Shown here: positions 19,554 through 37,432 of the stretch, one piece after another
How positions within the stretch are numbered: position 1 is the stretch's first letter
Layout of the letters: each line of letters starts with the position of its first letter
NCBI GenBank assembly: GCA_025963725.1
Contig: JAOQAE010000007.1
Location: 1 to 64,000, forward strand
DNA length: 64,000 bases
Origin: Bacteroidota bacterium
GTDB lineage: Bacteria > Bacteroidota > Bacteroidia > 2-12-FULL-35-15
Direction: 5' to 3'
Made by a program: the position numbers and the translations under genes
Notes under the pieces: generated by a model
Told to the model about the DNA's origin: nothing
What the model saw: the letters and a program-made list of their open reading frames with translations, nothing else
Database searches by the model: none

Positions 19554-19564
19554 CATAAACCAAT

Positions 19565-19590
19565 GCCGGGTGAGCAATGTCTCACCCGGC
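19565..19590 (+). other. Intra-operon hairpin (attenuator or processing site)
   Basis: A perfect 10-bp GC-rich stem, GCCGGGTGAG and its complement, encloses the loop CAATGT. No T run follows, so it is not a typical terminator. It lies 12 bases after the stop at 19553 and could protect the upstream mRNA or cause partial termination. Confidence 0.5.
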
Positions 19591-19619
19591 TTACTTAACA
19601 GTTAAATTCATCAGTATAA

Positions 19620-20117: not shown

Positions 20118-20120
20118 ATC

Positions 20121-20591
20121 ATGCCGGATACAGAGGAGATCACACGTATTTGTAAAGAGTATGCTGCAAAAAAAAGCTATGCCCTGGCTTTCAGCAAATC
20201 CATCGACCTTGGGATCATTACGGATGTGATGCCACTGGTTCAGGAAGCCATTCCGCAATTGCCGGGCTCCCTCATCAACGCATGGACGATCGAGCTCCGG
20301 CAGCTGCTTACAGTGTCATACCTGTCTATGGTAACAAAAGCGATCCCGGAAGCAAACGTACGCCTGGTGGGAATAAAAAATATTCCGAACCAAAGCAAAG
20401 TTGTTTTTTCCTTCGCTTTTAATTTTAAAGATATTGATCCGCCCATAAAAGCAGAAGGCATTTCCCTTCTTTCATTTGGCGTGACCGTTATTGTTTCACC
20501 TAACGGAGCGCCGGGCAAAAAGAGCAAGCTGGTGATCATGAAAAGCAATTCCCGCTCCGAAAAATTTACAATACTGAAAAAAGCATCCTGA
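20121..20591 (+). CDS. Small protein C of the LysM operon
   Basis: The 156-residue product has no signal peptide. A helical start (MPDTEEITRICKEYAAKKSYAL) is followed by IDLGIITDVMPLVQEAIPQLPGSLINAW, which aligns in style with the helical middle of proteins A and B. The C-terminal part is beta-rich (VVFSFAFNFKDIDPPIKAEGISLLSFGVTVIV), with IxLLSFGVTV in the place of the last strand. It is more divergent than A and B but plausibly the same module. It lies 3 bases after protein B and 2 bases before the giant gene. Confidence 0.72.
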   Translation: MPDTEEITRICKEYAAKKSYALAFSKSIDLGIITDVMPLVQEAIPQLPGSLINAWTIELRQLLTVSYLSMVTKAIPEANVRLVGIKNIPNQSKVVFSFAFNFKDIDPPIKAEGISLLSFGVTVIVSPNGAPGKKSKLVIMKSNSRSEKFTILKKAS

Positions 20592-20593
20592 TC

Positions 20594-23500
20594 ATGAGTG
20601 GAGAAAATAAATATAAGCTGGGTGCCGGTTTCCGCTTTGGAAAAACGTCGCTGGTCCTCAGCGGTGAATTTGGCAAGAACTCGCGCAGCAAGCTTACCGC
20701 AGAGATCGGGGACCTCACCATGGCTGATATTGTTGCCTACCTGATCAGTATTTTTGATGGTGATAAAAAACCATTTACAGAATTCCCCGAGCCTTGGGGA
20801 TTTTTGAATTCTATTAATTTCAAAGGCCTCAAGCTTATTGTTGAAGGCGAAACAACAAAAGGTGCAAAAGATAAACGGGTCGGGATCTCTTACCCGCTTT
20901 CGATAGATGTAAAATTTGCGCAGATCAGCGCAATTGAGATCTACTATTATCCCGACAGCAAGAACCACATCCTTATCCAACCGAAAGGAACTTTTCTCGG
21001 GCAGGAATTTAAAGAATGGGAGATCTACCCGAAACAGGAAGCACCCGCTGTTCCCGGCTACGGAACGGCCTTGTTCGACCTCAAATTTCTCGGCCTCGGG
21101 CAGCATGTTACTGTAAAGGGCATGTCTAAGTCTGCAGGAATTGCAGATACCGTTAAAGCGCTTGAAGACAACTTTAAGGAAGGCATGGAGATAAAGCCTG
21201 CGGATACTGCAGGCCCGGAGGATCTTATATTCAGCCCCACAAGCGGCTGGATGATCGGTTCACGCTTTATTATCATCAACACGGTTGACCTCAGCCTCAT
21301 TTATAATGATCCTTACATGTATGGCCTCGCGCTTTCGCTTTCAGGTGCCAAGGCAAAAACTTTAGCAGGGCTCAACATCGAGCTTTTGTACAAAAAAATT
21401 AATGATTCCATCGGCGTTTACTCGCTGCATCTGCAATTGCCCGATGCCATGCGGCAGCTCGAATTCGGCGCCGTTTCCTTTACACTGCCGGTGATCGATA
21501 TCGCTATTTATTCGAATGGCAATTTCAGGATCGATCTCGGGTTCCCGAATAACAACGACTGGAGCCGCGCAGCTACGGTGCAGGTGTTCCCGTTCATAGG
21601 GGCCGGTGGATTTTATTTTGCATTGCTCACAGGCGCTACCGCTACCCGGCTGCCTTCCGACTATGACCGTGAAATGGGCCTGTTCAACCCGGTGATCGAT
21701 TTTGGGATCGCACTACGGCTGGGTATCGGTAAAACAATTGACAAAGGAATTTTAAAGGCAGGCCTGAGCCTTTGCTTCCAGGGAATTGTTACCGGCACAT
21801 ACGGCTTTTTTATTCCCGATAGGGAAAAGGCCCCGGGCAGAAAAGAAGATTCTTATTATTACCTGAACGGGCAATTTGAAGTGGTGGGCCGTGTGTACGG
21901 GGAAATAAATTTTTCCGTGATCAGCGCAAGGCTCGATGTAATGATCTATGCCGCAATCGGCGTTGTGATAGAAGCATACAAGGATATTGTGCTGTATGTG
22001 AACGCTGGTGTAAGCCTCTCGCTCACCGTAAGCATCAACCTGGGATTCATTAAAATAAAGATCGATCTCTCTTACTCTACCAGCATCAGCTACACGTTCG
22101 TTTTGCCATACAGCGGCCCCTTGCCACAATGGAGGAAGCCCGACGGGAAATCCCTGCGCAATGCAGCGATGCCCGAAAACCCTTTCTATACCTCACTTGC
22201 AGCACCCGATGCAGGCACCTCGATCACAGAGCTGAAACCAAAACGGCTGCGCAGGACCGGAGAAAAAACGGTTCTCCCTGTGTGGTTCTTACCGCAATTC
22301 AGCGCGCGTGTAAAAGAAGAAATGCAGCAGCCGGAGCTAAAGGATCAAACGGCCAGCTTTATTGCGGGCCTGTTCTTAGACAGCGGCACCGACAAGCATG
22401 CAGGCGCCTTCGGAACACTTGCAAAAGCATACCTGCAATGGCTCGTCACCGTTTTCAAATCCCAGCTAAAGTTAACCGGCAGCAACAGCATCAGCATATT
22501 TACATTAAAGGACCTGTTCTCTTTTCTGTCGAAAGACCAGGCCGGTGTTCCTGTGATCGGATATGAATATCTTACAGGTTTCCTGGATGATAATTTTGAT
22601 GTGCAGATAACATCGCCGAAACACATGTCCGACGTTCGCAGGGTTAGTGTTTTCCCGATGCTGCCCGACCTTAAAATGCAGGCACAGCTGGATGATCAGC
22701 CCCCTTTCCTGGAGGTTGACTTTTCCGCAGATAAGGTAGACAGCGGCTACAACAAAACGATCCAGGAGTATTTTTCAAAAATGAAAGTGGGTTTTGAAAA
22801 TCCGCTCGAAGCAAAGAACAACCGGAAGCAAACTACAAAGAAGTCTGTCCGTCAATCACTCCCTACATTTATTTTCCAGGATTATTTTGTTTTACTGGGA
22901 CGTAACCTTTTACAGGATTGCATCGACCTGATGGAAGCGTATCCTTATACAACAATAAAAAGCGACAGCCTTGCTTCACTGTGCTCAACGTTTGACATTA
23001 CTGCGGAAGCCATTGTGAATGCAAATGCAAATGCGGAGCTGAAGCCGGATGAGATCATGTATCTGGGCGGCACGAAGTACAGCATTCAGAAATATGATTC
23101 TTTCGAATCGATAGCGTCTTATTACAATTTTGGCGAACAGGGATTAACAAGGGCATTCCTTATTTTCATTGCAGATACAAAAGCCAATGCGGAGATCATA
23201 AATCTATTTATTCCCGGTGCAACGCTCTTGATACCTTCTGGTGGTCCCCCGGAATCCTATATCTGTAAAACAGGTGATACTCTCGCAAGCATTGCCAGGC
23301 TCTCCAAAATCGCTGACCTCCCTTCTGCTATCCGTGAGCTGATCTGGATGAACAGGGAGAAAAAAGACATTCTTTCCACATTTACCGCATTGGTCATCCC
23401 CAAATATAAATTTGCAGTTAACAAAGGAATGACCTTCGCCTCGTTGGCTGACCACGGCAAGATTTCACTTGACCGCCTTGCCAACAACAACAACAAGAAT

Positions 23501-26500
23501 GCTGCTGCTATTTTTAATACAGGCACGGAACTCACACTGCCGCAACTGTATTCGCTTCCTGACATGAAGGTGCTGATCGATGGCATTACGGAAAAAGATT
23601 CACTCAGAAAGCTTTCAGGACTTGCATCGCGCTACCTTTTGCACGGCCTGCGTGTTCCCGCCCCTGCTGAATTTGCAAATCACTCCGGGACTTACGCATT
23701 GTATGACCTCACCAGGCAGATGTTTGATATTCCTGCCGCAAAGGCTGCATCCTGCACTGTTACATTGTCTGCCGACCTGCCTGCTTCCGTAAAAACAGAA
23801 ACATGGTTCAGGCTGATGCCGGAGAATGGTTCTCAAAAAAATGAGATCCGCTCCAGGATCGTCCTGGAAGGCGAAGATCTTAAGCAGGTTAAAAAGCTTT
23901 CCACTACCTTATTTAAGCCGAAGGTGAACAGTATAAAGAAAGCGGGCGGCTATACGATCAACCCAAGCCGCTATATGCTGAAGGCGCCATCGGTATGGCA
24001 GGCAAATGCCCCTGTATTTGTTCAGGGTCCCAGCGGCAGCACCTGGCCGGGCGGCCCCTCGGGCCCTGCGTATGGCTGGTGGCCGTATTCGGCTACCGGT
24101 TCCACTGAATATTCCGGTCCTACCGGCTGGCGAAAAGCAGCAACACCAAAGCTCTGGTATTTCTCCGATGAGCTTACAAAAGCCCTGCAGGAACAAAAAT
24201 CACTCGAGCCGGCACTCAGGCTTTACATGGGCAGGAACAACCCTGAGAAGAAAGAATTCGAAAAGAAAGAAATAAGGACTTATGGATGGAGCACCATTAT
24301 TCCGCTGAATATAATCGTAGTACCATCGTCCTTAACCCCGGGAGAGGAGCTCTCGACCATGTTCGAGATCGAAAGCACCTCGGAGGAAGGCTTGCAGCTT
24401 CTTGAAAATTTACTGGCCAATCAATATGATCCGGATCTTTCTACAGCGGAGCGCGTGGATGTGGCACAGGTGCATATATTATATACACCTGCAGCAAGCA
24501 GCGACGGACAGGGATTGCGCTCCATCGATCCTTCGGAAGTGGTTTCCGCCATAGTGCAATCCAACTTATCAACTGTTCGCAACCCGCAGGCATTAAAGGC
24601 TGCGGCAGGATCTGTGGGAAGGATATTCGGAAGCTTTAACCAGGACCCGGTGAACAACATCAAACGTTTGTGGGAAGCCTGCTCCGTAAAAAGCGGGGGC
24701 TTTTACCTGTATTACTTTGACAGTAACACAAAGCTGGGAATTCCGCGTAATACCTTTGATGAAAAAGGACATGCGCAGATCAGCATCGTGATCACCTATG
24801 GGCTTCAAAAACCTTACGGGTATAATTTCACAAACAGCATGACGCTGGGAGAAACAGTGCCGGAAGATTCTTATTTATTCGTAGAGTCGCAGCCGCGGGA
24901 TATTATAATACCGAATAATAATATAACAGTAGACAAACTACTGGAAAAATACCGCCTTACAATCGACTACCTCGCCCAGAAGCTGGACACCTCCAGGCTG
25001 AAGGAAAAGTTAGTGCTTAACATCCGCACCATTATTTTTCTGCTCAACAATGATGAATATACAGCAGACACAATTGCGCAGAAATACAATGTTAATGTAA
25101 AGGACCTTCGGGAGCTTAATCCCGGGATTGATTATAAACAGGGAGATGCGGTAAGGATCCCGGAAGTACGGTTTGACCTGGCAAAGAACAAGGAAAGAAC
25201 GCTGAAGGAGATCGCTGCCCTGTATTCTGTTTCTGTTATCAGCCTGCTCTGGGCCAATAAGGGTCAGCAGCTTTTCAGCGATCTTAGCATGTTAAAGCTG
25301 GCCGACCAGTCGCAAAGCAAAACATCCTCTGCTGTGCCGGGGACTGTTTCCTTTAACCTGCTGAGAAAGAATCCGGAAGTGGATGCCGCACGATTTGAAG
25401 AGTACCATAAAGATGCGCCAACGTTCGATCCTCAATCAGCGCTCGGACTCAATTATAACCTGCTAACATTTGCTGTAAAAGAAAATCCGTCATTCGCAGC
25501 AAGCTCGTACTCCATGGCGGTGAGCCCTGATAACGCAGGCTGGACAGGCAGCTCCGGCTTTTCTCCTAACCTCAGCTACCCGGGTGTGATCCCTGCATTC
25601 AACTATTCAAAAGCAGCCATTCAAAAAGGTCTGCCTTCGTATCCTGCACCGGAAAAAAATCCTTACAGGGGAACAGGAGATATTGTGCAGGTAAATTTCG
25701 ACTGGCAGGATATGTACGGAAACCGGACGGTATCGCCATTCAGCAACCCGAAGCTTTATCCTGATCCTTACCCGAACAGCTTTCCGCAGGTCGCCGCTTA
25801 TTCCGATCCGCTGCAGTCGGTTCTGCAATGGCCGGCGATAGGTATCGAGCATTTATTTTTGCCGAAAAAGAAACTGAATGTATCCCTTGCCTTTGATGCC
25901 GGAAGCTATTTGCCTTTCCCGGACAAAGGCGATGCACAGGACCTGATAAAGAAAGCACAGACCGACCTTGAAACATACCGCAAAGCCATTTACCAGCTAA
26001 GCGCAAACGATGTAACCGCAAGAGTTTCCACCTCCCTGGATCCCTCGCTTGAAAATGCTTCAGAGCTAAAACCGGAACTGCTGAACCTGATGGACGGCAT
26101 CTTTCATTACCTCTCCGCATTTACTGTTCCGGGGTATCAGTACTTTTCAGTAAAAGGCATAAGTGCAGAACACCTCGCGATGAATTACCGCATGAGCAGG
26201 GAATACATCAGTGCGCTGAACCCTGAGAAATCGCCGCCCGAAAACCGCATTAAAGATTACTTTTTACCGAACGATAATTTTTATTTGTATTACACCCTGG
26301 AAGACGAAAGCTTTACTGAGATTGCCGCAAAATTAAAAGTCATCAGCCCGCAGTTTAAAAACATCTCAGCGGAAGAGATCAGTTCCCTGAACCCCGGCAT
26401 TCCGGAAGTACAAGGCGATATGCTGATCGTGATCCCTGATCAGCGTTTACAAAGCTATGAACCAATGTTAGGCGAAACACTTGAAGGGATCTCCATCAAA

Positions 26501-29416
26501 ACGGGCGTTTCCACAGATATGCTCAAAGCTGCAAATCCCGGTATAAGTGAAACACCACCGGCGAGGCAGAAAATACTGATCCCCCGGTTCAGCAGCACTT
26601 TTTACACAACGGGGGAAGGTGATACCTTAAAGGGGCTGGCTGCAAAATTTAATGTTCCCGAACCTGTATTGAATGCGGCAACCTGTAAACATACCAGGCC
26701 ATTACAGGCAGGAAAGACCATTCTTATTCCTGACGGTGATTTTAAACTTTATCGTGCAAAAGAGGGTGACACGCTCAGTTCCATCGCTGCAGAAAAATGG
26801 GTGGCCTACAAAACGCTCTGCCTGATCAATCCCGCTTTAACCAATGAGCTTGCAGCAGGCACCGATGTATTGCTTCCGAAAACGCCTGTGCCGCTTGTTC
26901 AAAGCTTCCGCGTTGATATTAAAAATAAATCGCTCATCTTCCCTCTCGAGGTATGGCTCACCATCAGCAGGCAAGCCGCGCTGGTGGATGAAGCATTCCT
27001 CGATCAGCCGGAAGTAACGATATCTTCAAGCCTCATCCCGCCTCACCTCAGCATCACTGCGAATAATGAATTCAAAAAGAATACACCTGCCTCCGAAAGC
27101 CGTTCACTCCTCAATTACGCGGAGAGTTTCGAGAAAACATTTAGCGAAGTGAAGATCGCTACGTTAGGAGATAAGGCCGCTTCCAGGAATCAGCTGTATG
27201 CGGTAAGGATCAATAAAGGGGAAAAAGGCACTGAAAATAAAGGGATCTCTTTTTTTATAAAAAACGAGCCCGACTTTTATGCACCCATCCCGCTGGCCAC
27301 TTATCCGCTCAGCGCCACTTTCAGGGTTCCGCAGTACGTAAGCGGCAAAGGTTTTACAGGCCCCTGCTTCAATACGCCGAAAGGCTGCATGGGCGCTACC
27401 GGTGCGGGCACGCTTAACATGACGTTCCAGGGAATGCAGCTGGATCCTGTTGCACAGGATCTTTTTGAAAGCGTTGACCAGCTGCTGCAGCCTGATCTTA
27501 CAAGAGGGCTGCTGCAACTCGATGGCACGCTGAACACCAGCTACAGGCAGCAATTACTTGATGCAAAGAAAAAGATAGCGCAGGCGTACGGCAGCCATTT
27601 AGTAAAGCATGTTTTAAGCGAAACCAGCCACGATACGCCGGCTGATGTGAGCGAAGCGCTGCAGCAGCAAATGCTTCAGCGCCTCTCCAATTTATACAGC
27701 ATAGGAACCATTATTCAACTGCCGGTAACTGTTTCAAAGCACATTACCGATCCTGCACTGATCTTCGGAAATCCTGTGAATATAAATGAAAAGGCCGAAG
27801 ATCAGGTGACATTCTCATCAGCCCAGATCAGCCTGCAGCAATCGAATTCCACATCAATGACATTTGTGCTGAATGCTAGGCAGCCTGAAAAAAACAAGAA
27901 CATATCGTTAAACCTTGCTTACAAGCCGCTGGCAATGGAATTCAACATTCATCCGATCCCGGGCATCAATGATTACAAAGCTTCCCAATGGCTGTTCTTT
28001 GTTAAACCGCTGCCGCAAATAACCATCGGAGAGATCGAGGTCCCGGTTCCGCTGCGTGATTTTCCCGTTCCGCCAACGGTACTTGAACAAGAGGCAAAGG
28101 GAGTGGATGATGAAACGCCTGCGCTTGAAGCAACACGGCGATGGAAATATGCCTTTACTTTCCGTAACCCGGATACGGCGGCACAGGATGCCGTTTATTC
28201 GAGCACCCTGTTCAACATAGAGAATTATAATCTGAAGCTTGCAGCCGATGTGCCTGATCTGTTCTTTGGCCTTGCTACATGGAGCGTTGCCGGCCGCGAA
28301 ATGATGAGCGACATGCTTCGCTGCCTTCCGAAGCTCCAGCAGGGCGAGCGTGCAACCACTCCACTGTTCGACACGTGTAACAGGATCGTTAAAAGTTATT
28401 TGTCGGTTGTTACCTATGTTGCCGCTGCCCTGCCCGTATGGCTGGATGTGCGCAGCGCAAAATATAAACCAAAGGATATTGAATCCGGGGCTATGGAATT
28501 TTTAATGCTGACCGCGGATGAGAGCGATGAGTATTTTTTCATTCAGCTGAAAGCACCTGCCGGTACAGGGACGGTAAATATGCCTTACCCGACCTTGCCA
28601 GAGATAAACAAACGCCGGTATAACCCGACACAGAAAGCGCCCGGAACAAATGAGAAAAATGATGAGCAAAAATATTTCTTCATCGACGAAGAGAATAATT
28701 ACCTGCGCACAGCTGTTGCGACGGAATCGGCGGAAGCGAAAAGTATTTCATTGACGTTTGGCGCTTATCCCGGAAGGAATGAACATCCTGGATTCGGAAC
28801 GTGGCTTGATATTATGGAGCGTTGGAATGCCTGGGGCGGCGCTTACATTACACGCAATGAATACCTCGTCAAAGGTAAAATCACGAATCCTGATTTTGTT
28901 TACCGTACGCCTGTAGTGCGGCCGTACAACGCTTCCGCCCCACTGCTCGATTACAGCACGCCTTTCGACATCCATCTGATGCCACTTCCTGCGAAGCCTC
29001 TCCTGTTTGAAGAGCAAATGCGCAACATGCTCTATAACTTTTTCGGCGGGGATAATGGTAACAATCCAAAGATCAGGCTCAAGCTGGTATGGAGCTACAG
29101 CTATTGCATCAACGCCGGAGTTACCGATCCGTATGCCGCTGATGCACTGTATGTAACGCTTCCCGGCGGATTGATCCCGCCCTTTACATTTACAATCCCA
29201 AATGACTGGAACAGCGATCCGGGCTCCAATAGCTTTGCCTGCCAGCTTTCTGCAGTGATCAGGAAATGGCTGGAAGATAACGAAGTGCCGGGTGCAGAAG
29301 CCGGCGCACGCATCCAGTTTGATATCACTGCGTTCTCTAACCTGCCGGATAACAAGCTTCCGTTTTACAGGCTGCGTAATCTGTTTTTAAATGTAAAAGA
29401 CCTGATCCTTAAATAA
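20594..29416 (+). CDS. Giant 2940-residue protein with about a dozen LysM-like repeats
   Basis: No signal peptide is seen. Residues 1-120 carry a module like those of the three small proteins upstream, and residues about 120-520 are long amphipathic strands (FRIDLGFPNN, GAGGFYFALLTG, INLGFIKIKIDLSYS) that resemble large beta-barrel or DUF6603-like proteins; that comparison is from memory. LysM-like repeats come in three blocks: about 785-990 (YICKTGDTLASIARL), 1485-1580 (TADTIAQKYNVNVKDLRELNP) and 1850-2100 (GEGDTLKGLAAKFNV, AKEGDTLSSIAAEKW). LysM domains usually bind GlcNAc-containing glycans such as peptidoglycan. Near 1136-1185 there is a Gly/Pro/Trp-rich linker with GPSG and GPTG. The C-terminal 800 residues are unrecognised. 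With no export signal, peptidoglycan binding requires an unknown route or release by lysis. It is the last and largest gene of the operon. Confidence 0.82.
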   Translation: MSGENKYKLGAGFRFGKTSLVLSGEFGKNSRSKLTAEIGDLTMADIVAYLISIFDGDKKPFTEFPEPWGFLNSINFKGLKLIVEGETTKGAKDKRVGISYPLSIDVKFAQISAIEIYYYPDSKNHILIQPKGTFLGQEFKEWEIYPKQEAPAVPGYGTALFDLKFLGLGQHVTVKGMSKSAGIADTVKALEDNFKEGMEIKPADTAGPEDLIFSPTSGWMIGSRFIIINTVDLSLIYNDPYMYGLALSLSGAKAKTLAGLNIELLYKKINDSIGVYSLHLQLPDAMRQLEFGAVSFTLPVIDIAIYSNGNFRIDLGFPNNNDWSRAATVQVFPFIGAGGFYFALLTGATATRLPSDYDREMGLFNPVIDFGIALRLGIGKTIDKGILKAGLSLCFQGIVTGTYGFFIPDREKAPGRKEDSYYYLNGQFEVVGRVYGEINFSVISARLDVMIYAAIGVVIEAYKDIVLYVNAGVSLSLTVSINLGFIKIKIDLSYSTSISYTFVLPYSGPLPQWRKPDGKSLRNAAMPENPFYTSLAAPDAGTSITELKPKRLRRTGEKTVLPVWFLPQFSARVKEEMQQPELKDQTASFIAGLFLDSGTDKHAGAFGTLAKAYLQWLVTVFKSQLKLTGSNSISIFTLKDLFSFLSKDQAGVPVIGYEYLTGFLDDNFDVQITSPKHMSDVRRVSVFPMLPDLKMQAQLDDQPPFLEVDFSADKVDSGYNKTIQEYFSKMKVGFENPLEAKNNRKQTTKKSVRQSLPTFIFQDYFVLLGRNLLQDCIDLMEAYPYTTIKSDSLASLCSTFDITAEAIVNANANAELKPDEIMYLGGTKYSIQKYDSFESIASYYNFGEQGLTRAFLIFIADTKANAEIINLFIPGATLLIPSGGPPESYICKTGDTLASIARLSKIADLPSAIRELIWMNREKKDILSTFTALVIPKYKFAVNKGMTFASLADHGKISLDRLANNNNKNAAAIFNTGTELTLPQLYSLPDMKVLIDGITEKDSLRKLSGLASRYLLHGLRVPAPAEFANHSGTYALYDLTRQMFDIPAAKAASCTVTLSADLPASVKTETWFRLMPENGSQKNEIRSRIVLEGEDLKQVKKLSTTLFKPKVNSIKKAGGYTINPSRYMLKAPSVWQANAPVFVQGPSGSTWPGGPSGPAYGWWPYSATGSTEYSGPTGWRKAATPKLWYFSDELTKALQEQKSLEPALRLYMGRNNPEKKEFEKKEIRTYGWSTIIPLNIIVVPSSLTPGEELSTMFEIESTSEEGLQLLENLLANQYDPDLSTAERVDVAQVHILYTPAASSDGQGLRSIDPSEVVSAIVQSNLSTVRNPQALKAAAGSVGRIFGSFNQDPVNNIKRLWEACSVKSGGFYLYYFDSNTKLGIPRNTFDEKGHAQISIVITYGLQKPYGYNFTNSMTLGETVPEDSYLFVESQPRDIIIPNNNITVDKLLEKYRLTIDYLAQKLDTSRLKEKLVLNIRTIIFLLNNDEYTADTIAQKYNVNVKDLRELNPGIDYKQGDAVRIPEVRFDLAKNKERTLKEIAALYSVSVISLLWANKGQQLFSDLSMLKLADQSQSKTSSAVPGTVSFNLLRKNPEVDAARFEEYHKDAPTFDPQSALGLNYNLLTFAVKENPSFAASSYSMAVSPDNAGWTGSSGFSPNLSYPGVIPAFNYSKAAIQKGLPSYPAPEKNPYRGTGDIVQVNFDWQDMYGNRTVSPFSNPKLYPDPYPNSFPQVAAYSDPLQSVLQWPAIGIEHLFLPKKKLNVSLAFDAGSYLPFPDKGDAQDLIKKAQTDLETYRKAIYQLSANDVTARVSTSLDPSLENASELKPELLNLMDGIFHYLSAFTVPGYQYFSVKGISAEHLAMNYRMSREYISALNPEKSPPENRIKDYFLPNDNFYLYYTLEDESFTEIAAKLKVISPQFKNISAEEISSLNPGIPEVQGDMLIVIPDQRLQSYEPMLGETLEGISIKTGVSTDMLKAANPGISETPPARQKILIPRFSSTFYTTGEGDTLKGLAAKFNVPEPVLNAATCKHTRPLQAGKTILIPDGDFKLYRAKEGDTLSSIAAEKWVAYKTLCLINPALTNELAAGTDVLLPKTPVPLVQSFRVDIKNKSLIFPLEVWLTISRQAALVDEAFLDQPEVTISSSLIPPHLSITANNEFKKNTPASESRSLLNYAESFEKTFSEVKIATLGDKAASRNQLYAVRINKGEKGTENKGISFFIKNEPDFYAPIPLATYPLSATFRVPQYVSGKGFTGPCFNTPKGCMGATGAGTLNMTFQGMQLDPVAQDLFESVDQLLQPDLTRGLLQLDGTLNTSYRQQLLDAKKKIAQAYGSHLVKHVLSETSHDTPADVSEALQQQMLQRLSNLYSIGTIIQLPVTVSKHITDPALIFGNPVNINEKAEDQVTFSSAQISLQQSNSTSMTFVLNARQPEKNKNISLNLAYKPLAMEFNIHPIPGINDYKASQWLFFVKPLPQITIGEIEVPVPLRDFPVPPTVLEQEAKGVDDETPALEATRRWKYAFTFRNPDTAAQDAVYSSTLFNIENYNLKLAADVPDLFFGLATWSVAGREMMSDMLRCLPKLQQGERATTPLFDTCNRIVKSYLSVVTYVAAALPVWLDVRSAKYKPKDIESGAMEFLMLTADESDEYFFIQLKAPAGTGTVNMPYPTLPEINKRRYNPTQKAPGTNEKNDEQKYFFIDEENNYLRTAVATESAEAKSISLTFGAYPGRNEHPGFGTWLDIMERWNAWGGAYITRNEYLVKGKITNPDFVYRTPVVRPYNASAPLLDYSTPFDIHLMPLPAKPLLFEEQMRNMLYNFFGGDNGNNPKIRLKLVWSYSYCINAGVTDPYAADALYVTLPGGLIPPFTFTIPNDWNSDPGSNSFACQLSAVIRKWLEDNEVPGAEAGARIQFDITAFSNLPDNKLPFYRLRNLFLNVKDLILK

Positions 29417-29435: not shown

Positions 29436-30251
29436 ATGCCGCTTCAATACCCTAAAATAAGCTGTCTCACGGTTACAAAAAACAGGTTACCTGCTTTAAA
29501 AACCGCGATCCGCTGCTATTGCGACCAGACCTATCCTGAAAAGGAAATGGTAATTGTTTCTGACGGCAGCGCATGGTATAATGCTGCCGTACAACGTTAC
29601 CTCAGTGAGCTCGGAAGAAAGGATATCCGCCTTGTAGCAATAAATGAAACATGTACGCTTGGGAAGCTGAGGAACATCAGCATTTCGGAAGCAACAGGCA
29701 ACATCATCTGCCAGTGGGACGATGACGACCTTTACCACCCCGATCGCCTGAGCATACAGTTTGCAAAGATGACAGCGGAGAATGCGAAGGCCTGCTGCAT
29801 GACCGACCAGCTGCATTATTTTTATGAAGAGCGTGAATTATTCTGGTGCGACTGGAAAGCATATGAGAGCAACCCGCTGTATCAGCTGATCCCCGGCACC
29901 ATCATGATGTATAAGGACAAGCGTTTTTCGTACCCCGAAACCGGCAGTTATGCGGTTTCCGGCGAGGATTCTGTTTTTCTCGCGGGTATCTTCGAAACCT
30001 TTCCTGTTGCAGAGCTTTCAGGCATGGGGTATTTATATACCTACACATTTTCAGGCAACAATACCTTTTCCGAACAGCATCACCGCCTCCTTGACGAAAA
30101 ATACAGCATGTCCGCGGACGATGTGTGGAAAGATGAAGCAAAGATCCGGGAAGCTCTTGATTATTACCTGCTGCCTTCACCGATAAAAATAATAGGCTAT
30201 GAACAGGAGATCGTTTTTACCTGGATGTTTAATTATCAATCATCGTTATGA
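29436..30251 (+). CDS. Family 2 glycosyltransferase
   Basis: The 271-residue cytoplasmic protein has the GT-A fold pattern of family 2: SCLTVTKNR at the N-terminus, VIVSDGS for nucleotide binding, GKLRNISISEATG, and the metal-binding stretch WDDDDLYHPDR near residue 95. It probably transfers a sugar from a nucleotide donor to a growing glycan or to a protein. Acceptor and sugar cannot be read from the sequence. Its stop overlaps the start of the next gene in an ATGA arrangement, so both are translated together. The length is short but complete for the family. Confidence 0.88.
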   Translation: MPLQYPKISCLTVTKNRLPALKTAIRCYCDQTYPEKEMVIVSDGSAWYNAAVQRYLSELGRKDIRLVAINETCTLGKLRNISISEATGNIICQWDDDDLYHPDRLSIQFAKMTAENAKACCMTDQLHYFYEERELFWCDWKAYESNPLYQLIPGTIMMYKDKRFSYPETGSYAVSGEDSVFLAGIFETFPVAELSGMGYLYTYTFSGNNTFSEQHHRLLDEKYSMSADDVWKDEAKIREALDYYLLPSPIKIIGYEQEIVFTWMFNYQSSL

Positions 30252-32110
30252 GCTATAAACCAACTGTAAGGATATGCCTTAACATGATCGTTAAGAATGA
30301 AGCAGCGGTGATACGCCGTTGCCTCGAAAGCGTGATGCCCGTTATCAGCTATTGGGTAATTGTTGATACCGGGTCCACAGACAACACGAAAGAGATCATC
30401 CACGAATGCCTCAAAGATATTGATGGCGAGCTGCATGAAAGGCCATGGAAAAATTTCGGACATAACCGTTCCGAAGCGCTGGAGCTTGCAAAGGGAAAAG
30501 GGGATTATCTTCTGATCATTGACGCGGATGAGGTCCTTTCTTTTGATCGCGGGTTTACATGGCCTGTACTCGACCGGGACGGCTACATGATAGAAACAAA
30601 ATTCAGCGCAACCTCCTACGTACGCATGCAGCTGGTGAACAACCGGCTCAACTGGCGCTTTGAAGGTGTGTTGCATGAATATATCCACTCGCCTGAAATG
30701 AAGACCTCAGGCACCTTAACCCACGTTTATAATTATCCTTACCCGGATGGCGCACGGTCATCGGATCCGAATAAATATAAGCGTGACGCACTGGTACTGG
30801 AAAATGCATTGCTGGAAGACCCTGAGAATGCACGTTATGTGTTTTACCTGGCGCAAAGTTACCGCGATGCGCAGGAGCATGAGCTGGCATTAAAGAATTA
30901 CATAAAACGGGTGGAGATGAAAGGCTGGCCCGAAGAAGTGTGGTTCAGCCTTTACCAGATCGCGATACTGAGCAACCGAATGGGCGAAGACTGGGCGGTT
31001 ACAAAAGAAAAATTCCTGGCAGCTTTTGAATACAGGCCTTCAAGGGCGGAGCCATTGTTTCATGTGGCCCACTATTACAGGTCAAATGAACGATATGACC
31101 TTGCATATTTATACGCTTCGCAGGGTGAACGTATACCATTGCCCGCGGATATTCTTTTTGTAGAGAAGCCCGTTTACGAATACCTGTTGCCGATGGAGCT
31201 GGCCATATCGGCGCACTGGACAAACCGCTACGATGAAGCGCTGGCGGCGAACAACAAGATCATGGCAAACAGGCTGGAGACACCGGCTTCTGTTTTCGGC
31301 CAGACGATCGTCAACCGCAATTTTTCACTCGATGAGCTAATAAAGCGCCTGCCTTTTTCAGGAAAAAAGAATAAGATCAGGGTTGCTGTTCTTTTTTATA
31401 ATCCCGGAAGCTACCTTGACAATTGTATTTCCAGCTTACTGCAGCAGGATTACGATAATTTTGAAATCATCTTTGTAGATGATGCCTCTACCGACGGTTC
31501 GCAGGAGCGCATTCCAACGGATGATCCCCGGGTTACGCTGATCAGGAACACCGAAAACAAAGGCGGGGCATGGAACCTGCACCAGTGCCTGCTTCGTTGC
31601 CAGCCTGATGATATCTTCTTTCAGCTGGACGGGGACGACTGGCTGGCTTGCAATGATGCGCTCAGCCACGTGAACCGCTTTTTTGAGGAAACCTCCTGCT
31701 GGGTAATGTACGGACAATACATGTTCATGGACGGATCGTACGGACTTTCGCGCCCTTTTACAGATCCTAACGATTTCAGGAATATGCGCCGCGACTGGGT
31801 GTCGCCTGTTCCGAGATGCTTCCGTGCAGGACTCTATCACCGCATATCCGATCAGGACCCTGGTTATGAGTGCATGCGCGATGCCAAAGGTGAATGGTAC
31901 CGGGAAGCCATGGATGTTGCGTTGATCTATCCTGTTCTTGACCTCGCCGGCCTGGAAAATGTAAAATTTAATACACGCACGCTTTACGTTTATAATACAG
32001 ACAATCCGCTGAACGTGCACAAATCACGACGCTTGCAGGAAGCTGAGAACCATTCGCAGATCTCCGCAAAGCGCCCTTTTGCAAGAATAGCCGATTACCG
32101 GTTTTCCTGA
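30248..32110 (+). CDS. Bifunctional protein: two family 2 glycosyltransferase domains with a helical TPR-like middle
   Basis: The 620-residue protein has an N-terminal GT2 domain (ICLNMIVKNEAAVIRRCLESV, VDTGSTDNT, IIDADEVL at about 93-100) of the kind fused to tetratricopeptide-like repeats in many bacteria. A helical region follows at about 170-330 (ARYVFYLAQSYRDAQEHELAL, FHVAHYYRSNERYDLAYLYA). A second GT2 domain starts near residue 378 (RVAVLFYNPGSYLDNCISSL, FVDDASTDGSQ, FFQLDGDDWL near 456). TPR-like parts usually hold protein acceptors, as in O-GlcNAc transferase, which supports protein glycosylation here. It overlaps the previous gene by 4 bases and is followed after 16 bases by the GT62-like gene. 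Confidence 0.87.
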   Translation: MSYKPTVRICLNMIVKNEAAVIRRCLESVMPVISYWVIVDTGSTDNTKEIIHECLKDIDGELHERPWKNFGHNRSEALELAKGKGDYLLIIDADEVLSFDRGFTWPVLDRDGYMIETKFSATSYVRMQLVNNRLNWRFEGVLHEYIHSPEMKTSGTLTHVYNYPYPDGARSSDPNKYKRDALVLENALLEDPENARYVFYLAQSYRDAQEHELALKNYIKRVEMKGWPEEVWFSLYQIAILSNRMGEDWAVTKEKFLAAFEYRPSRAEPLFHVAHYYRSNERYDLAYLYASQGERIPLPADILFVEKPVYEYLLPMELAISAHWTNRYDEALAANNKIMANRLETPASVFGQTIVNRNFSLDELIKRLPFSGKKNKIRVAVLFYNPGSYLDNCISSLLQQDYDNFEIIFVDDASTDGSQERIPTDDPRVTLIRNTENKGGAWNLHQCLLRCQPDDIFFQLDGDDWLACNDALSHVNRFFEETSCWVMYGQYMFMDGSYGLSRPFTDPNDFRNMRRDWVSPVPRCFRAGLYHRISDQDPGYECMRDAKGEWYREAMDVALIYPVLDLAGLENVKFNTRTLYVYNTDNPLNVHKSRRLQEAENHSQISAKRPFARIADYRFS

Positions 32111-32126
32111 ACCATATTTAACGCTT

Positions 32127-32882
32127 ATGCCTAAACCGCTTGTACTCATTCTTACGCCCCTGAAAGATGCTGCTAAAAACTTAGAGCTGTATTTCTCCTT
32201 GCTCGAAAAGATCAGCTATCCAAAAAAAAAGATCTCGATCGCCTTTCTTGAAAGCGACAGCAGTGATACAACCTATGCAGATATACAGGCGCGTTTGCCA
32301 CAGCTCAAAAAAAAATATCATAAAGCTACACTCTGCAAAAAAGATTTCGGCTTCCGGATTCCGGAGGGAATGCCGCGTTATTGGGAAACGATCCAGTATG
32401 AGCGGCGCAGTATATTGGCACGCAGTCGCAACCAACTCCTTTTCCGCGCCTTGCAAAATGAGGAATGGGTGCTTTGGCTGGATTCCGACCTGCTGGAATA
32501 CCCTCCCGATATTATCGAACAATTGCTAAGCAAGGAAAAAGAGATCCTGCATCCGAACTGCGTATTGGATTACGGCGGGCCAAGCTTCGACCGGAATGCA
32601 TGGCGCGACAAGGGTAAGTTACACATGCACGACCTGCGTGCGGAAAACGATGTCGTTCCGCTCGACAGCGTTGGCGGAACCATGCTTTGGGTGAAAGCTG
32701 ATATTCACCGCGATGGATTGATCTTCCCGCCTTTTCCGTATGGATTGGAAAACCCTAAAATAAGATATGATAATCTTTGGAAAGGTGAGCTGGAAACGGA
32801 GGGATTCGCAATTCTTGCCAGTGATATGGGCTACACCTGCTGGGGATTACCGAATCTTGAGATCAGGCATTTGCGGGAATAA
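32127..32882 (+). CDS. Anp1/Mnn9-like (GT62) glycosyltransferase
   Basis: The 251-residue protein carries the diagnostic series of the fungal Golgi Anp1/Mnn9/Van1 mannosyltransferases: LILTPLKDAAKN near residue 6, IAFLESDSSD, the RRSILARSRNQLLF block, VLWLDSDLLEYPPDII with the DxD site near 115, VGGTMLWVKADIHRDG, FPPFPYG and LETEGFAILASDMG near the end. It lacks the N-terminal membrane anchor of the fungal enzymes and is probably cytoplasmic. The fungal family makes alpha-1,6-mannose backbones; the bacterial sugar is unknown. The stop codon is directly followed by the stop of the convergent gene, with no base between them. The presence of both GT62 and GT71 types in one bacterial cluster is unusual. 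Confidence 0.85.
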   Translation: MPKPLVLILTPLKDAAKNLELYFSLLEKISYPKKKISIAFLESDSSDTTYADIQARLPQLKKKYHKATLCKKDFGFRIPEGMPRYWETIQYERRSILARSRNQLLFRALQNEEWVLWLDSDLLEYPPDIIEQLLSKEKEILHPNCVLDYGGPSFDRNAWRDKGKLHMHDLRAENDVVPLDSVGGTMLWVKADIHRDGLIFPPFPYGLENPKIRYDNLWKGELETEGFAILASDMGYTCWGLPNLEIRHLRE

Positions 32883-35543
32883 TTACTCCTTCACCGGCCG
32901 CAACACGACATACATTTTTTCATGCAACAGCCAGCGGCCTTCCCAGTCGCCCGTTTCGGACTGCAATAACCTGCAGCTTACGCCACCTTCTCCTTCGATG
33001 ATGATCCTGTAATTTGTATCCGTATAGTCGATCCACCAGGTTTGCTCGGATGGGGAATTACCTTCTCCGATTATCCCGCCGGACAAGAATTCCATACGCC
33101 GCTTATCGCACCCGATGCGTTCGAATTCAAAATAATGCATCCTGCAAATTTTTTCCTCGGTCTGCCGTATGGGATTCATTGCCTTGTCATCATATTGAAC
33201 AAGCTGCAATTTATTCAGCTGCTGTACAAACCCAATGCATTCGGCTTCATATACAAAGCCTTCGATGCGGTGATTTCTCATGTCACTGCGCAGCTTGTCG
33301 CCATAGCGGTGCTGAAACAAAGGCTTTCCTGAAAGATCATGCTGCACCATTGTAAAGGGCAAATGAAAAATGGGCGTATCAGGAAGAGTATACCCGCTGT
33401 TCAACCGGCGCCAGGCCATGTGAAATGTTTCCTTGTCGCCGTTGATCAGCCTGTAGTAAAAATGTGCGTGTGTATTATAAAACATTGCCAGCTGCAGTTC
33501 CCTGAAATGTTTTGTTTTATTGATCAGCATCTGCCCCGATTCAAATTCCGGCTCATCGCGGTATGCAACACCGCACACTTCCCAGATAGCCCTATGCCTG
33601 CTCAGCGAACCGAAATCGGGCCAGAACAGGGCTCCTGTTTTCCGATAGGCAGGCTCATCAAAAAGAAAAGATGGATCGCGCAAAGGAACATTGTCCGAAT
33701 CCAGCAGCAGCACTTCCGAAAATGCTGTATTGAGCAATGCGTAAGCTTTCAGCGGCCAGCCTTTTCTTTCATGATCACCGGGAATGTAACCTTCTGCGTA
33801 AGCATCGCGAAAGCTTACATTTAATTTTTGCAAGGCAGGAATTGCTTCCGCCGGCAGCTCTTCCTTACCAAGATGCCAAAGCTCGATTGGCAGCGTGCAT
33901 TTTAATGTAATGCGCAGCAAATGGATCAATGCCCATGCTCCGGGAAAATATTTTTCTCCCCCACCCGGAATAACAATGCCTCTGCCCGACCCAGCTTGTA
34001 TCGATGTTACGTCAAAAGAGGCGATCAGCTCTTCCTGCAATGCATGATAGATATGTTTTTCGGCTTCCGTACAGGCTTCATAAACAGGCTCCAGCCTTAC
34101 TGCGGTGTGTTCATCCAGCATTCCTTTCCAGCTTTCCTCTTTATCCCTGCGCAGGGAACAGGCGATCCCCAGGTGATTTAAAATAGCCAACAGCGGACTG
34201 CCGTCCGGACTCTCTTTCAATTCCCACTGTACAGGAATTCCCATTGGAAGATATCCCAATATGCCGATACTGAGATCCGGCATCATCTCCACCAGTTGCG
34301 AACCGGTTCCTGCAAGTGTATAACGATACATTTTGGTACTGCAGAATTCCATAAAGGCGCGGCGCAGTTCAGCCGGATATATTTGCGGCGTACAAGCACT
34401 TCCGGGAACATCGCCATACAAGCTATCAAGGATTTGCATCAGCCGCTGCGTTGTGTTTGCCCAGGTGTATTTTTTCCTGATCGCTTCGGAAGCTGGTTGT
34501 GCAGAAAGCATTTCACCTTTTACAGCGCGCTGTATGATCTCAACCGCTGCATCATGCTCCGGCAACCAGAAACGGAGACCGCTTAATAATGTAGGAGGAT
34601 GATCAGCGGGAACATCGATTTCTTTCGATGGAATAAAGCTTGTCCATTGCTCATCCATCCAGTTTTCGTATGCACTGTGTCGCGGCGCGATCAGCTGCAA
34701 TCCGCAGGCGCCCGCTTCCATCATAGGGAGGTCCCAGCCCTCGCCGTGCGACATGCTGATGTAATGCGTACCGGCAGCGTAGAGCGAAGGCATTGCATCC
34801 GGAGCAAGAAGATCAGAGATCCAGCAGATGGGCGCAGCCTCTTCAAATGTTTTTCCTGCTGCTTCCTGTATGCCAACAATTTTCTGCTGCAGCCATGTAT
34901 GCAGATGCTCGTGGTATAAGCCAGCCTTCAGGATAAGCACGGCATCATCAGAGCTACTGGTTGCTTCCAGCCATGCACGAAGCAACCCTGTAATATTTTT
35001 GCGCGGGATAAAATCTGAAATGTTCATCATCCGCACAGCGTATTCATGCACAGGCTTTTCACGCGTCATCCCTAAATCAAGCGCGGCAATTCCCGGCTTA
35101 AAGATAGCAGGGTCCACACCTAAAGGACAGATGCTTATTTTACTGCTGCTGATCCCTGAGTTGATCCATGCATTGGCGGATGAAAGTGTGGGAACAATAA
35201 TGTGGTCGTGCTGTGAGCTTCTTTCGGCCCAGGCGGGAGGAATGGTAGTGGCCTCAAACATTGTAAAATTAACATTCGGCATTCCCTCGCAGCGTTGTAC
35301 CTGAGGAGGCATTACAAAATGCAGGCAAATTTCCGTTGCTTCCTGTTGAGCGGCAGGAAAAGAGGAGATCTCTGAAAGCCAGTTGGCAGGGAGCGTAACG
35401 GTGCTCCACCCGGTAAATTCACGAAATTCAAAGGAGCGGCCGCACTGCAACAAGGCTTTGCAGATCTGCCTTACATGGTTGTCGTACCCCGTTGGGCCGC
35501 GGCAGGGGCCGATGATCCGGAAATTTTTCAGCACCTTTAACAT
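32883..35543 (-). CDS. Fusion of a GT4-type glycosyltransferase and an Mnn1-like (GT71) mannosyltransferase domain
   Basis: The 886-residue protein has two catalytic halves. The N-terminal half (about 1-400) is GT-B type, with GPCRGPTGYDNHVRQI at the start and the EGWDLPMMEAGACG motif near 265 that marks retaining family 4 enzymes. The C-terminal half (about 515-790) matches fungal Mnn1-type alpha-1,3-mannosyltransferases: GRGIVIPGGGEKY, VLLLDSDNVPLRDPSFLF with the DSD site near 612, GALFWPDF, ESGQMLINKTKH near 669 and NGDKETFHMAW near 701. A tail of about 100 residues follows. No signal or membrane segment is seen, so it is cytoplasmic. It is convergent with the GT62-like gene and divergent from the collagen-Kelch gene, which makes that protein a candidate substrate. 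Confidence 0.85.
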   Translation of the reverse strand: MLKVLKNFRIIGPCRGPTGYDNHVRQICKALLQCGRSFEFREFTGWSTVTLPANWLSEISSFPAAQQEATEICLHFVMPPQVQRCEGMPNVNFTMFEATTIPPAWAERSSQHDHIIVPTLSSANAWINSGISSSKISICPLGVDPAIFKPGIAALDLGMTREKPVHEYAVRMMNISDFIPRKNITGLLRAWLEATSSSDDAVLILKAGLYHEHLHTWLQQKIVGIQEAAGKTFEEAAPICWISDLLAPDAMPSLYAAGTHYISMSHGEGWDLPMMEAGACGLQLIAPRHSAYENWMDEQWTSFIPSKEIDVPADHPPTLLSGLRFWLPEHDAAVEIIQRAVKGEMLSAQPASEAIRKKYTWANTTQRLMQILDSLYGDVPGSACTPQIYPAELRRAFMEFCSTKMYRYTLAGTGSQLVEMMPDLSIGILGYLPMGIPVQWELKESPDGSPLLAILNHLGIACSLRRDKEESWKGMLDEHTAVRLEPVYEACTEAEKHIYHALQEELIASFDVTSIQAGSGRGIVIPGGGEKYFPGAWALIHLLRITLKCTLPIELWHLGKEELPAEAIPALQKLNVSFRDAYAEGYIPGDHERKGWPLKAYALLNTAFSEVLLLDSDNVPLRDPSFLFDEPAYRKTGALFWPDFGSLSRHRAIWEVCGVAYRDEPEFESGQMLINKTKHFRELQLAMFYNTHAHFYYRLINGDKETFHMAWRRLNSGYTLPDTPIFHLPFTMVQHDLSGKPLFQHRYGDKLRSDMRNHRIEGFVYEAECIGFVQQLNKLQLVQYDDKAMNPIRQTEEKICRMHYFEFERIGCDKRRMEFLSGGIIGEGNSPSEQTWWIDYTDTNYRIIIEGEGGVSCRLLQSETGDWEGRWLLHEKMYVVLRPVKE

Positions 35544-35566
35544 TTACATGCTCTTCTTTTATCATT

Positions 35567-35574
35567 CAAAGATA
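35567..35574 (-). promoter_or_regulatory. -7 box of the GT4-GT71 gene
   Basis: Read on the minus strand, TATCTTTG matches TAnnTTTG, 23 bases before the start codon at 35543. The TTTG half is not found at normal spacing. Confidence 0.42.
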
Positions 35575-35743
35575 ACAAAGTATACGCATCCCGAAGAGAT
35601 ATGTAACACAGTGCTTTGTCCTCATGGTGCGCTGTCGTAAGGTTTTTATTGGCAGTTAAAAATATTGTCATACATTAGCGATGAGCTACTCCCTCGAAGA
35701 TCACTATCATTCTAACATAAAATTGCGGTTAACAGATAAGTAA

Positions 35744-37432
35744 ATGAGTAAGAAAAAATCAACAGCTTCCGGCAACAAACAAGAGCTTTCGTCAAAAATA
35801 AAAACGTCAAAAAAAGATCTGAATAAAAAGCCCGGGCCCACAGGTGCTATTCCTTTTAATTCTACTACAGATCAGTTACTGAAGTATTTGGTTGTGAACA
35901 GCATTACAGGCCCAACCGGCCCTACAGGTAAAGACGGCAAAGATGGCGTAACAGGTGCTACAGGAAAAGATGGCAAAGATGGAGTAACTGGCGCTACAGG
36001 TAAGGACGGTATAGATGGCAAAGACGGAAAAGATGGCGCTACAGGGGCAACAGGTAATGACGGTACAGATGGCAAAGACGGCAAAGATGGTGCTACAGGG
36101 GCAACAGGTAAAGACGGTACAGATGGCAAAGACGGAAAAGATGGCGCTACAGGGGCAACAGGTACAGACGGTACAGACGGCACAAATGGAAAAGACGGAG
36201 TAACTGGCGCAACAGGTAAGGATGGCACAGATGGCAAAGACGGAAAAGATGGAGTAACAGGCGCAACCGGTAAAGACGGTACAAATGGCACAAATGGAAA
36301 AGATGGAGTAACGGGTGCAACCGGTAAAGATGGCACAAATGGCTCAAATGGAAAAGATGGAGTAACGGGTGCACCGGGAAAAGATGGAGCAACAGGCCAT
36401 GGCGAGAGAGGCCCTACAGGCCCTACAGGTGCAGGCATTGAAGCTGATGTTATTATATTGAGAAAAACCAACCAGTCGATGTCCGGCTTTGTTCCTTTGA
36501 ATATTGTAGTAACCGGGAATACGGTAACAGGCTTCTGGAATGAAGCACCCAGGCCTGATGCATTCGTATGTAATGCAGGAACGGTAGTAGACCCGCACTC
36601 CAAAAGTATTTACCTGATAGGTGGAGTTGCCGGGGTCACAAAAGTAAAACTTGTTCAGCATTTTAACACGAAAGAAAAGGAATGGAAAATGCATAGTTCC
36701 ATCCCGGATGCCTTAACATTCCCCGCTGCTACAATGTATACCAATAAGCTTGTTTATGCCGGGGGGGATCTGGATGGAGCAATAAGTAATAAAGTGTATA
36801 TATTTGACGGTACGTGGAGGCTCATGGGCGAATTGCCCAAGCCGGTTTCAGCAGCAACGGCCGTTGAATATCGTGGCAAGTTGTATGTACTGGGGGGCCG
36901 GGATAAAAAAAACGCGATAACGCCTTGTAAATATATCCAGGTATATGATCCGGAAAGTAGAAGCTGGAGTTTCGTGGATACCCAGGTTGTGAGTTTTGCA
37001 ACAGCCAGTGCCGCAGTTTACCAGGATAAAATATATGTATTCGGTGGCCATTCAGTTAACGCTTCAGGAGCTCTTATCCCAATGCCTGTTATGGCTTATC
37101 ATCCACCGACTAACCTGTGGACGCAAATAGCAGCACATCCTACCACACTGATATATGAATCAGCTTTAATGATAGATGATACGATCTATTATATTGGCGG
37201 TTCTTTCTTTGAGTCGTTTGACGATCCGAGCAGCAGTTGCTTCGCCTATAATGTGGTGTCGAAAAGCATGAAGACAGTACAGACAACCCTAAAAACGCCA
37301 CGCAGGAACGCAAGCGGCGCCGTTGTTGACCGTTGCATGTTTATCATGGGAGGTACGGGTCCTACCGGCACATTTAAAACAGAATATCTTGATCCGGACG
37401 ACTATCAATTTTACCTGCATAAAAGGATCTGA
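35744..37432 (+). CDS. Collagen-like/Kelch fusion protein without signal peptide
   Basis: The 562-residue protein begins with a Lys/Ser-rich head (MSKKKSTASGNK) and a short linker, with no hydrophobic signal. About 58 Gly-X-Y triplets follow (about residues 56-230), built on GKDG, GATG and GVTG, so this rod is charged and Lys/Asp-rich, unlike the GAT/GTN rods at 6-12 kb. The C-terminal 300 residues are Kelch-type repeats forming a beta-propeller (IYLIGG, LVYAGGD, LYVLGGRD, IYVFGGHS, IYYIGGSF, MFIMGGTG). Kelch propellers bind proteins or glycans. G-K-D triplets can form axial salt bridges that stabilise a triple helix without proline. The divergent glycosyltransferase and the three upstream suggest glycosylation of the rod, as inference. 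The start fits after an untranslated stretch of about 200 bases. Confidence 0.87.
   Translation: MSKKKSTASGNKQELSSKIKTSKKDLNKKPGPTGAIPFNSTTDQLLKYLVVNSITGPTGPTGKDGKDGVTGATGKDGKDGVTGATGKDGIDGKDGKDGATGATGNDGTDGKDGKDGATGATGKDGTDGKDGKDGATGATGTDGTDGTNGKDGVTGATGKDGTDGKDGKDGVTGATGKDGTNGTNGKDGVTGATGKDGTNGSNGKDGVTGAPGKDGATGHGERGPTGPTGAGIEADVIILRKTNQSMSGFVPLNIVVTGNTVTGFWNEAPRPDAFVCNAGTVVDPHSKSIYLIGGVAGVTKVKLVQHFNTKEKEWKMHSSIPDALTFPAATMYTNKLVYAGGDLDGAISNKVYIFDGTWRLMGELPKPVSAATAVEYRGKLYVLGGRDKKNAITPCKYIQVYDPESRSWSFVDTQVVSFATASAAVYQDKIYVFGGHSVNASGALIPMPVMAYHPPTNLWTQIAAHPTTLIYESALMIDDTIYYIGGSFFESFDDPSSSCFAYNVVSKSMKTVQTTLKTPRRNASGAVVDRCMFIMGGTGPTGTFKTEYLDPDDYQFYLHKRI

Follow-up and report, generated by a model that had tools for sequence, protein, structure and literature searches.

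A stretch of 64,000 nucleotides from a Bacteroidota bacterium (GenBank assembly GCA_025963725.1, contig JAOQAE010000007.1, positions 1 to 64,000; hereafter the window) carries a cassette of leaderless proteins, from 15489 to 37432, in which glycosyltransferases (GTs) of families GT62 and GT71 are encoded beside a protein with a collagen-like stalk and Kelch repeats (collagen-Kelch; Table 1). The five genes that an earlier note on this DNA had described were found where it had placed them. The genes for a giant LysM protein, the GT2 at 29436, the protein at 30248 (the 30248 protein) and GT62 follow one another on one strand with gaps of less than 20 bp. In two relatives, G408 (locus L003) and G407 (locus L004), the order is a protein of the 1100-amino-acid (aa) class, three small proteins, the LysM giant, GT2, the 30248 orthologue, GT62, GT71 on the opposite strand, and collagen-Kelch; because this synteny holds in both, the gene set is not a chance arrangement of open reading frames (ORFs).

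Table 1. Features of the cassette, with their positions in the window.
Feature	Coordinates	Strand	Basis
Leaderless protein of 1151 aa, encoded at the head of the conserved cassette	15489..18944	+	Orthologues 59% (G407) and 67% (G408) identical, beside the same genes
Three small leaderless proteins (188, 165 and 156 aa), cassette members	18987..20591	+	Orthologues 38-52% identical, order kept in G407 and G408
2940-aa leaderless LysM-containing giant protein; alternative acceptor candidate	20594..29416	+	LysM PF01476
GT2 glycosyltransferase; proposed extension enzyme	29436..30251	+	PF00535, 58.2 bits against a cut-off of 23.3
620-aa protein with N-terminal GT2, middle like tetratricopeptide repeats (TPRs) and C-terminal GT2	30248..32110	+	Pfam and PDB matches
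GT62 (Anp1/Mnn9-like) protein without membrane anchor, motif D119-S-D121	32127..32882	+	PF03452
886-aa protein, GT4-like N-terminal half fused to C-terminal GT71 (Mnn1-like) domain	32883..35543	-	PF11051
Intergenic region between the divergent GT71 and collagen-Kelch genes; conserved block close to the start of GT71	35544..35743	.	Alignment with two relatives
Collagen-Kelch protein with basic leaderless N-terminus, 55 Gly-X-Y triplets and Kelch repeats; proposed acceptor	35744..37432	+	PF01391 and Kelch matches

The cassette is present in 3 of 36 genomes of the genus (that of G408 is only 64% complete), with collagen-Kelch as its last gene every time and an unlike next gene in each (37459 in the window, 15328 in L003, 16043 in L004). 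GT62, GT71, the N-terminal 800 aa of the giant and a strong Kelch match go together, found in exactly these three genomes; strong Kelch matches (42-44% identity, expectation value (E) of 8e-71 or better) are confined to them, with weak matches, the best 5.7e-8, in six further genomes. The 30248 protein likewise finds a full-length match only there, the best match in the other 33 genomes (9e-13) covering one domain. As a constant member in the three genomes that have the cassette, collagen-Kelch belongs with it, as the earlier note had supposed. In the window it is followed after 26 bp by a 547-aa membrane protein (37459-39102), which matched no Pfam family and is not beside collagen-Kelch in the two relatives.

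The GT62 and GT71 assignments of the earlier note hold well above the Pfam cut-offs: the protein at 32127 matches PF03452 (Anp1) with 179.6 bits against 28.8 (E 1e-52), and the C-terminal half of the protein at 32883 matches PF11051 (Mannosyl_trans3) with 121.9 bits against 22 (E 4.1e-35). A profile of eight bacterial GT62 proteins matches chain residues 23-301 of yeast Mnn9 (3zf8; E 4e-36), and the D119-S-D121 motif lines up with Mnn9, where the segment is N-A-D, as do three blocks that we call HRDG, ETEG and GLPN. The fold predicted for the GT62 protein by AlphaFold (mean predicted local distance difference test, pLDDT, 74.5) is nearest to Mnn9 over its whole length (Foldseek 5.6e-16; Z score 21.9 over 223 residues), followed by the N-domain of human COLGALT1 (9evk_A; Z 20.2, 229 residues) and residues 293-518 of LH3 (Z 19.7). 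Family membership, read from sequence alone, makes it a putative GDP-mannose-dependent alpha-1,6-mannosyltransferase. GT62 and GT71 enzymes of yeast use GDP-mannose, and by analogy the same donor is assumed for both proteins of the window. They differ from the yeast enzymes in that the GT62 protein has no membrane anchor and is only 32% identical to Mnn9, and in that the cassette is bacterial and has no known N-glycan substrate.

Similarity to COLGALT1 was considered as a mark of collagen as the substrate and given little weight, because only one lineage shows it and the likeness in fold is probably shared by the whole family; the sequence match is weak in the window (E 6e-5), L003 (1.6e-4) and L004 (1.2e-5), and reaches 0.022, 0.49 and 0.21 in L006, L005 and L007, where collagen is not nearby.

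The other parts of the enzyme set resemble proteins from GT62 loci of other phyla. The N-terminal half of the 886-aa protein, whose GT4-type matches (PF13524, PF13692) fall below their cut-offs, shares 40% identity over 382 aa with a KSB1 protein encoded next to GT62 that itself scores 28.3 against a cut-off of 28.5 for PF13439; the GT71 part is 38% identical over 358 aa to the product of the gene adjoining GT62 in Oricola; and the GT2 at 29436 shares 36% identity over 211 aa with the GT2 segment of a Symploca GT32-GT2-GT62 fusion.

Among the enzymes of the cassette, the 30248 protein points to a protein acceptor. The best solved relatives of its N-terminal half (residues 1-365) in the PDB are cytosolic protein or peptide glycosyltransferases, GmaR (7.9e-14) and SunS (5e-11); GmaR is described as a GT domain with TPRs that puts GlcNAc on flagellin (PMC9638930). 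These are the closest solved relatives only: their acceptors differ, and no antirepressor role is suggested here. The earlier note had spoken of two GT2 proteins, one with TPR-like repeats; both are indeed GT2 proteins, the 30248 protein having two such domains, and it is the TPR-like stretch that stands less firmly. A designed TPR chain matches residues 177-293 at E 3.5e-4, weak TPR matches recur in the two orthologues, and in most of the viral-contig relatives tested, roughly where the Pfam match of the window protein lies (residues 183-220), and in a plasmid relative (L285) TPR_2 is above cut-off. A predicted structure of the 620-aa protein was too poor to use (pLDDT 38.7).

A scan of viral contigs with the 30248 protein gave 259 relatives, with matches almost wholly within residues 1-390, and the best 80 of these were analysed for a collagen-like ORF, defined by 8 or more strict Gly-X-Y triplets, within 4 kb of the GT. 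Such an ORF was present in 33 of the 80 loci, on the strand of the GT in all 33 and within 250 bp in 21, compared with 1 of 80 loci when relatives of the 29436 GT2 were taken from that collection with the same flank (Fisher 8e-11). After clustering at 90% identity the counts are 21/47 against 1/46 for the control, and at 85% they are 18/39 against 1/26 (p 2e-4); a looser first count had given 34 loci and 19 clusters, and the stricter 33 and 18 were adopted. The contigs of a second GT2 control overlapped heavily with those of the first, and the two together have collagen in 2 of 137 loci, both from one contig; non-GT controls were too few to use, with one gyrB locus, unscanned for collagen, and two PhoH loci, neither with collagen. 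With a second query, itself from a collagen-adjacent locus, collagen-like ORFs were found in 11 of 16 loci (9 of 12 clusters), never within 250 bp; one locus from the same contig was left out. The collagen label switches at least 11 times in a quick tree, and of the viral rows listed the three closest to the window all have a collagen-like neighbour. Matches were also found in 147 plasmid or chromid records; among six examined, a collagen-like ORF lies within 5 kb in three (L281, L283 and, on the strand opposite the GT, L284) and is missing from L280 and L282. In Tunturi_5, the one phage record examined of five with a match, a collagen-like tail fibre is encoded 3.7 kb off on the opposite strand. 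Relatives of the N-terminal half are thus statistically tied to collagen-like genes, and these neighbours, together with the kinship to GmaR and SunS, support the earlier suggestion that it could hold a protein acceptor and make the 30248 protein a likely protein-acceptor enzyme.

Two of the plasmid relatives deserve separate mention. On a Citrobacter plasmid (L285:1936-6209) the relative of the N-terminal half lies about 110 bp after an autotransporter gene with a short GATGPTGP stretch, which is perhaps a minimal acceptor motif. On a Mesorhizobium plasmid (L284:2682-5483) the relative makes up part of a protein whose annotation is GT25, the family of COLGALT.

The 35744 protein matches collagen (PF01391) with E 2.6e-25 and its best Kelch family with E 7.1e-35. 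Thr or Ser occurs in 30 of the 55 triplets of the window stalk, in 38 of 60 in L003 and in 41 of 71 in L004; Gly-Lys-Asp makes up 21 triplets in the window, and each orthologue has a single Lys triplet. The retention of Thr/Ser but not Lys across the three orthologues argues against Gly-Lys-Asp as the target, one of the two triplet types that the earlier note had offered. Lysine glycosylation of the animal (COLGALT/LH) type was rejected on the same ground and because no lysyl hydroxylase family was recognised among the cassette genes; the likeness to COLGALT1 and LH3 is one of predicted fold, with weak sequence similarity. The window stalk has only 3 prolines in its 55 triplets, which would give weight to some other means of stabilisation, such as glycans. 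In a 19-residue hydropathy scan the first 60 residues of the GTs, the giant and collagen-Kelch all stay below 1.6; the maxima over the whole length are 1.31 for the GTs and 1.07 for collagen-Kelch, and one segment of the giant reaches 1.82 (residue 441); by this measure the GTs and collagen-Kelch have no signal or membrane segment.

We favour, with moderate confidence, the reading of these genes as a cytosolic protein O-glycosylation cassette that would act on the collagen-Kelch stalk. The N-terminal half of the 30248 protein would recognise the leaderless collagen-like protein in the cytosol and put a first sugar on Thr or Ser of its Gly-X-Y triplets; the C-terminal GT2 of the same protein, the 29436 GT2, GT62 and GT4-GT71 may then extend it to an oligosaccharide, possibly containing mannose. 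The likeliest acceptor would be the collagen-Kelch stalk, and the product a glycosylated rod with a propeller head that would presumably leave the cell. More tentatively, the relatives of the N-terminal half could form a widespread, dedicated class of O-glycosyltransferases for collagen-like (Gly-X-Thr) proteins in phages and bacteria, to which this cassette would add GT62 and GT71 for a longer, perhaps mannan-like, glycan on a collagen stalk.

The first step of this scheme has a precedent in Clostridioides difficile, where the gene for SgtA lies immediately before bclA3; SgtA, described as a GT-A domain with four TPRs, attaches beta-O-GlcNAc in vitro to Thr in peptides of the BclA3 collagen repeat (PMC7157674). 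The 30248 protein shares with SgtA a GT-A (GT2-like) domain, and perhaps the TPR part behind it, and its gene is near that of a collagen-like protein with Thr-rich triplets, a comparison of domain layout and gene position and not of sequence homology. It differs in its second GT2 domain and in a TPR part that is weak by sequence, while the cassette adds GT2, GT62 and GT4-GT71 and its acceptor candidate carries Kelch repeats. Cytosolic O-glycosylation of a collagen-like protein by a GT2-type TPR enzyme is therefore already known from SgtA-BclA3; what is new is that GT62 and GT71 join in, that the candidate acceptor is a collagen-Kelch protein, that the cassette is conserved, and that the tie between the enzyme class and collagen-like genes in viral contigs is put in numbers. 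Among the open-access papers that full-text searches listed, judged by titles and the openings of abstracts, none deals with such a cassette.

Several points weigh against action on the stalk. The enzymatic role of the GTs is predicted from their families. The best Pfam TPR match to the middle of the 30248 protein (residues 183-220, E 0.03) is below cut-off. Its gene, in the same cassette as collagen-Kelch, lies close behind the LysM giant and two genes, or 3.6 kb, from collagen-Kelch; SgtA is encoded directly beside its acceptor, and in 21 of the best 80 viral-contig loci the collagen-like ORF is within 250 bp. A collagen-like ORF was not seen in 47 of those 80 loci; at 75% identity the clusters fall to 7/10 against 1/6 for the control (p 0.12); and that control is a single GT2 family of low diversity. 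The three cassettes may also descend from one acquisition in one genus. Outside the genus, none of nine GT62 loci has a strict Gly-X-Y run of 8 or more triplets nearby (flanks of about 10 kb, except downstream in L008 and L009, with only 1.5 and 2.8 kb), and in Aphanothece GT62 comes after a pair of ABC-2 exporter genes. The possibility that would have spoken against the earlier note, ordinary bacterial families for these domains, is thus borne out in part: the domains are GT62 and GT71, but the closest relatives found are bacterial, one of them by an exporter, and none of the nine loci outside the genus is by a collagen-like run.

The LysM giant, encoded immediately ahead of the GT genes, is the main rival acceptor; that the GTs act on it or on another product of the operon, with collagen-Kelch merely a neighbour or partner, is unlikely. 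The close spacing of GT2, the 30248 gene and GT62 behind the giant suits this possibility, as do its presence in the same 3 of 36 genomes and its short Gly-X-Thr/Gly-X-Ser patches, among them a G-A-T/S-G-A-G patch that all three orthologues share. The giant lacks any run of at least 6 Gly-X-Y triplets, however, whereas relatives of the N-terminal half of the 30248 protein associate with such repeats; G407 has two paralogous giant modules (C17, C20), and in the stretches fetched around them no ORF matches the GTs of the window; and among five examined of eight plasmid records with a match to the giant, none has a GT annotated beside it, in gene tables (PLSDB) that are incomplete. Modules that pair a 1100-1250-aa protein with a giant LysM-type protein, as at 15489-29416 in the window, turn up again in distant bacteria (L042-L045; L075-L079), on plasmids of Mycetohabitans, Paenibacillus, Nostoc, Azospirillum and Lysinibacillus, and no Pfam family was matched in the N-terminal parts tested; the 1151-aa protein of the window matched no Pfam, PHROG or PADLOC family.

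A role for the cassette in making or decorating a polysaccharide or glycolipid, the apparent function of GT62 loci in other phyla, is quite unlikely. The exporter beside GT62 in Aphanothece suits polysaccharides, the GT62 gene of Oricola, which adjoins a GT71 gene, has GT90, GT4, Caps_synth and a GT10-like gene just below cut-off in its neighbourhood, that of KSB1 has GT2 and GT4 genes, and the lack of collagen-like runs at the nine loci points the same way. Against this, exporter, flippase, polymerase and lipid-linked priming families were not recognised among the cassette genes in family searches, and one cassette enzyme falls with protein or peptide glycosyltransferases. In the KSB1 locus a membrane protein with C-terminal TPRs (L006:12456-14432), which we take to resemble O-mannosyltransferases of the TMTC type, adjoins the GT62 gene and the GT4-like gene.

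It is very unlikely that the collagen-like fibres at 6337-12672, or collagens generally, serve as the acceptors, with collagen-Kelch one of many, even though the three fibres are richer in Thr/Ser triplets (39/55, 71/89 and 114/136) and, by eye, viral-contig relatives of the N-terminal half in L118 and L119 lie beside collagen-like ORFs with signal-peptide-like N-termini, because collagen domains occur in 30 of the 36 genus genomes, some with more than 100 domain matches, and GT62 in three, so the fibres do not depend on the cassette and the special link to them drawn in the earlier note is not supported. Directly upstream of the three fibre genes, which have signal-like N-termini, the window encodes a 2064-aa SprB-repeat protein with a CHU_C tail for type IX secretion (72-6266).

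Two further explanations of the cassette as a whole were rejected: none of eight sequences tested, including the first 800 aa of the giant, matched PADLOC, which speaks against a defence system, and of eight sequences compared with PHROGs (the first 1000 aa of the giant) only collagen-Kelch matched, via its collagen and Kelch parts, which speaks against a phage origin. A promoter scan was near the shuffled expectation (30 vs 25.1), and promoter and terminator scans yielded nothing usable.

GT62 is rare in the bacteria sampled. PF03452 is above cut-off in 1 of 395 genomes of the window's phylum, namely its own (6 of 395 at E 0.001 or better), in 1 of 292 cyanobacterial genomes sampled, the one on which that sample was centred (2 of 292 at E 0.001), and in 4 of 398 Pseudomonadota, centre included; three of the six genomes found among all 1085 are thus the window's own and two centres picked for having the family. 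None of 14 control genomes has it. The GT62 protein of the window is 86 and 83% identical to those of its two congeners, 62-53% to those of Aphanothece, KSB1, Oricola and Symploca, 48-47% to those of Azospirillum and 40-36% to three further Pseudomonadota rows (L087 not counted). In a tree of GT62, part of the phylogenetic check proposed by the earlier note, the three Bacteroidota group together (100/99) among bacterial rows, and Mnn9, the single fungal sequence included, sits on a very long branch. Because bacterial rows are nearest in identity and in the tree, a recent fungal import of GT62 was rejected; this covers GT62, GT71 having been compared with fungi by Pfam only.

Fusions of GT32 and GT62, with or without GT2 between them, were seen in bacteria (L008:8375-10765, L071:8384-10744, L073:9230-10783 and, by eye, L085 and L088), and the GT32-GT2-GT62 form occurs in Symploca and Azospirillum. 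They unite in one protein two families of the outer-chain pathway of yeast, the Och1-type and the Mnn9-type; GT32, GT62 and GT71 are listed as the families of yeast Och1, Mnn9 and Mnn1/Mnn2 in the table of PMC5225481. A single-sequence scan of viral contigs with GT62 gave no relatives. Among 28 weak GT62-pattern matches in viral contigs, 11 loci have long G-T-S-type repeats upstream of small GT-like genes (L090, L091, L092, L094, L098-L102, L108 and L115), at distances of 0.8 kb in L098 and 1.9 kb in L090; these loci were set aside as support, since they form one cluster of four and their identity as GT62 is not established.

Since a survey of 52 bacterial, 15 archaeal and other genomes recorded PF03452 in fungi only among those sampled (PMC5225481), a bacterial GT62 beside GT71 bears on the origin of the yeast mannan enzymes. 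The association of the enzyme class with its neighbours offers a testable rule for which collagen-like proteins of bacteria and phages are glycosylated, and by which enzyme. Such proteins are themselves studied as biomaterials.

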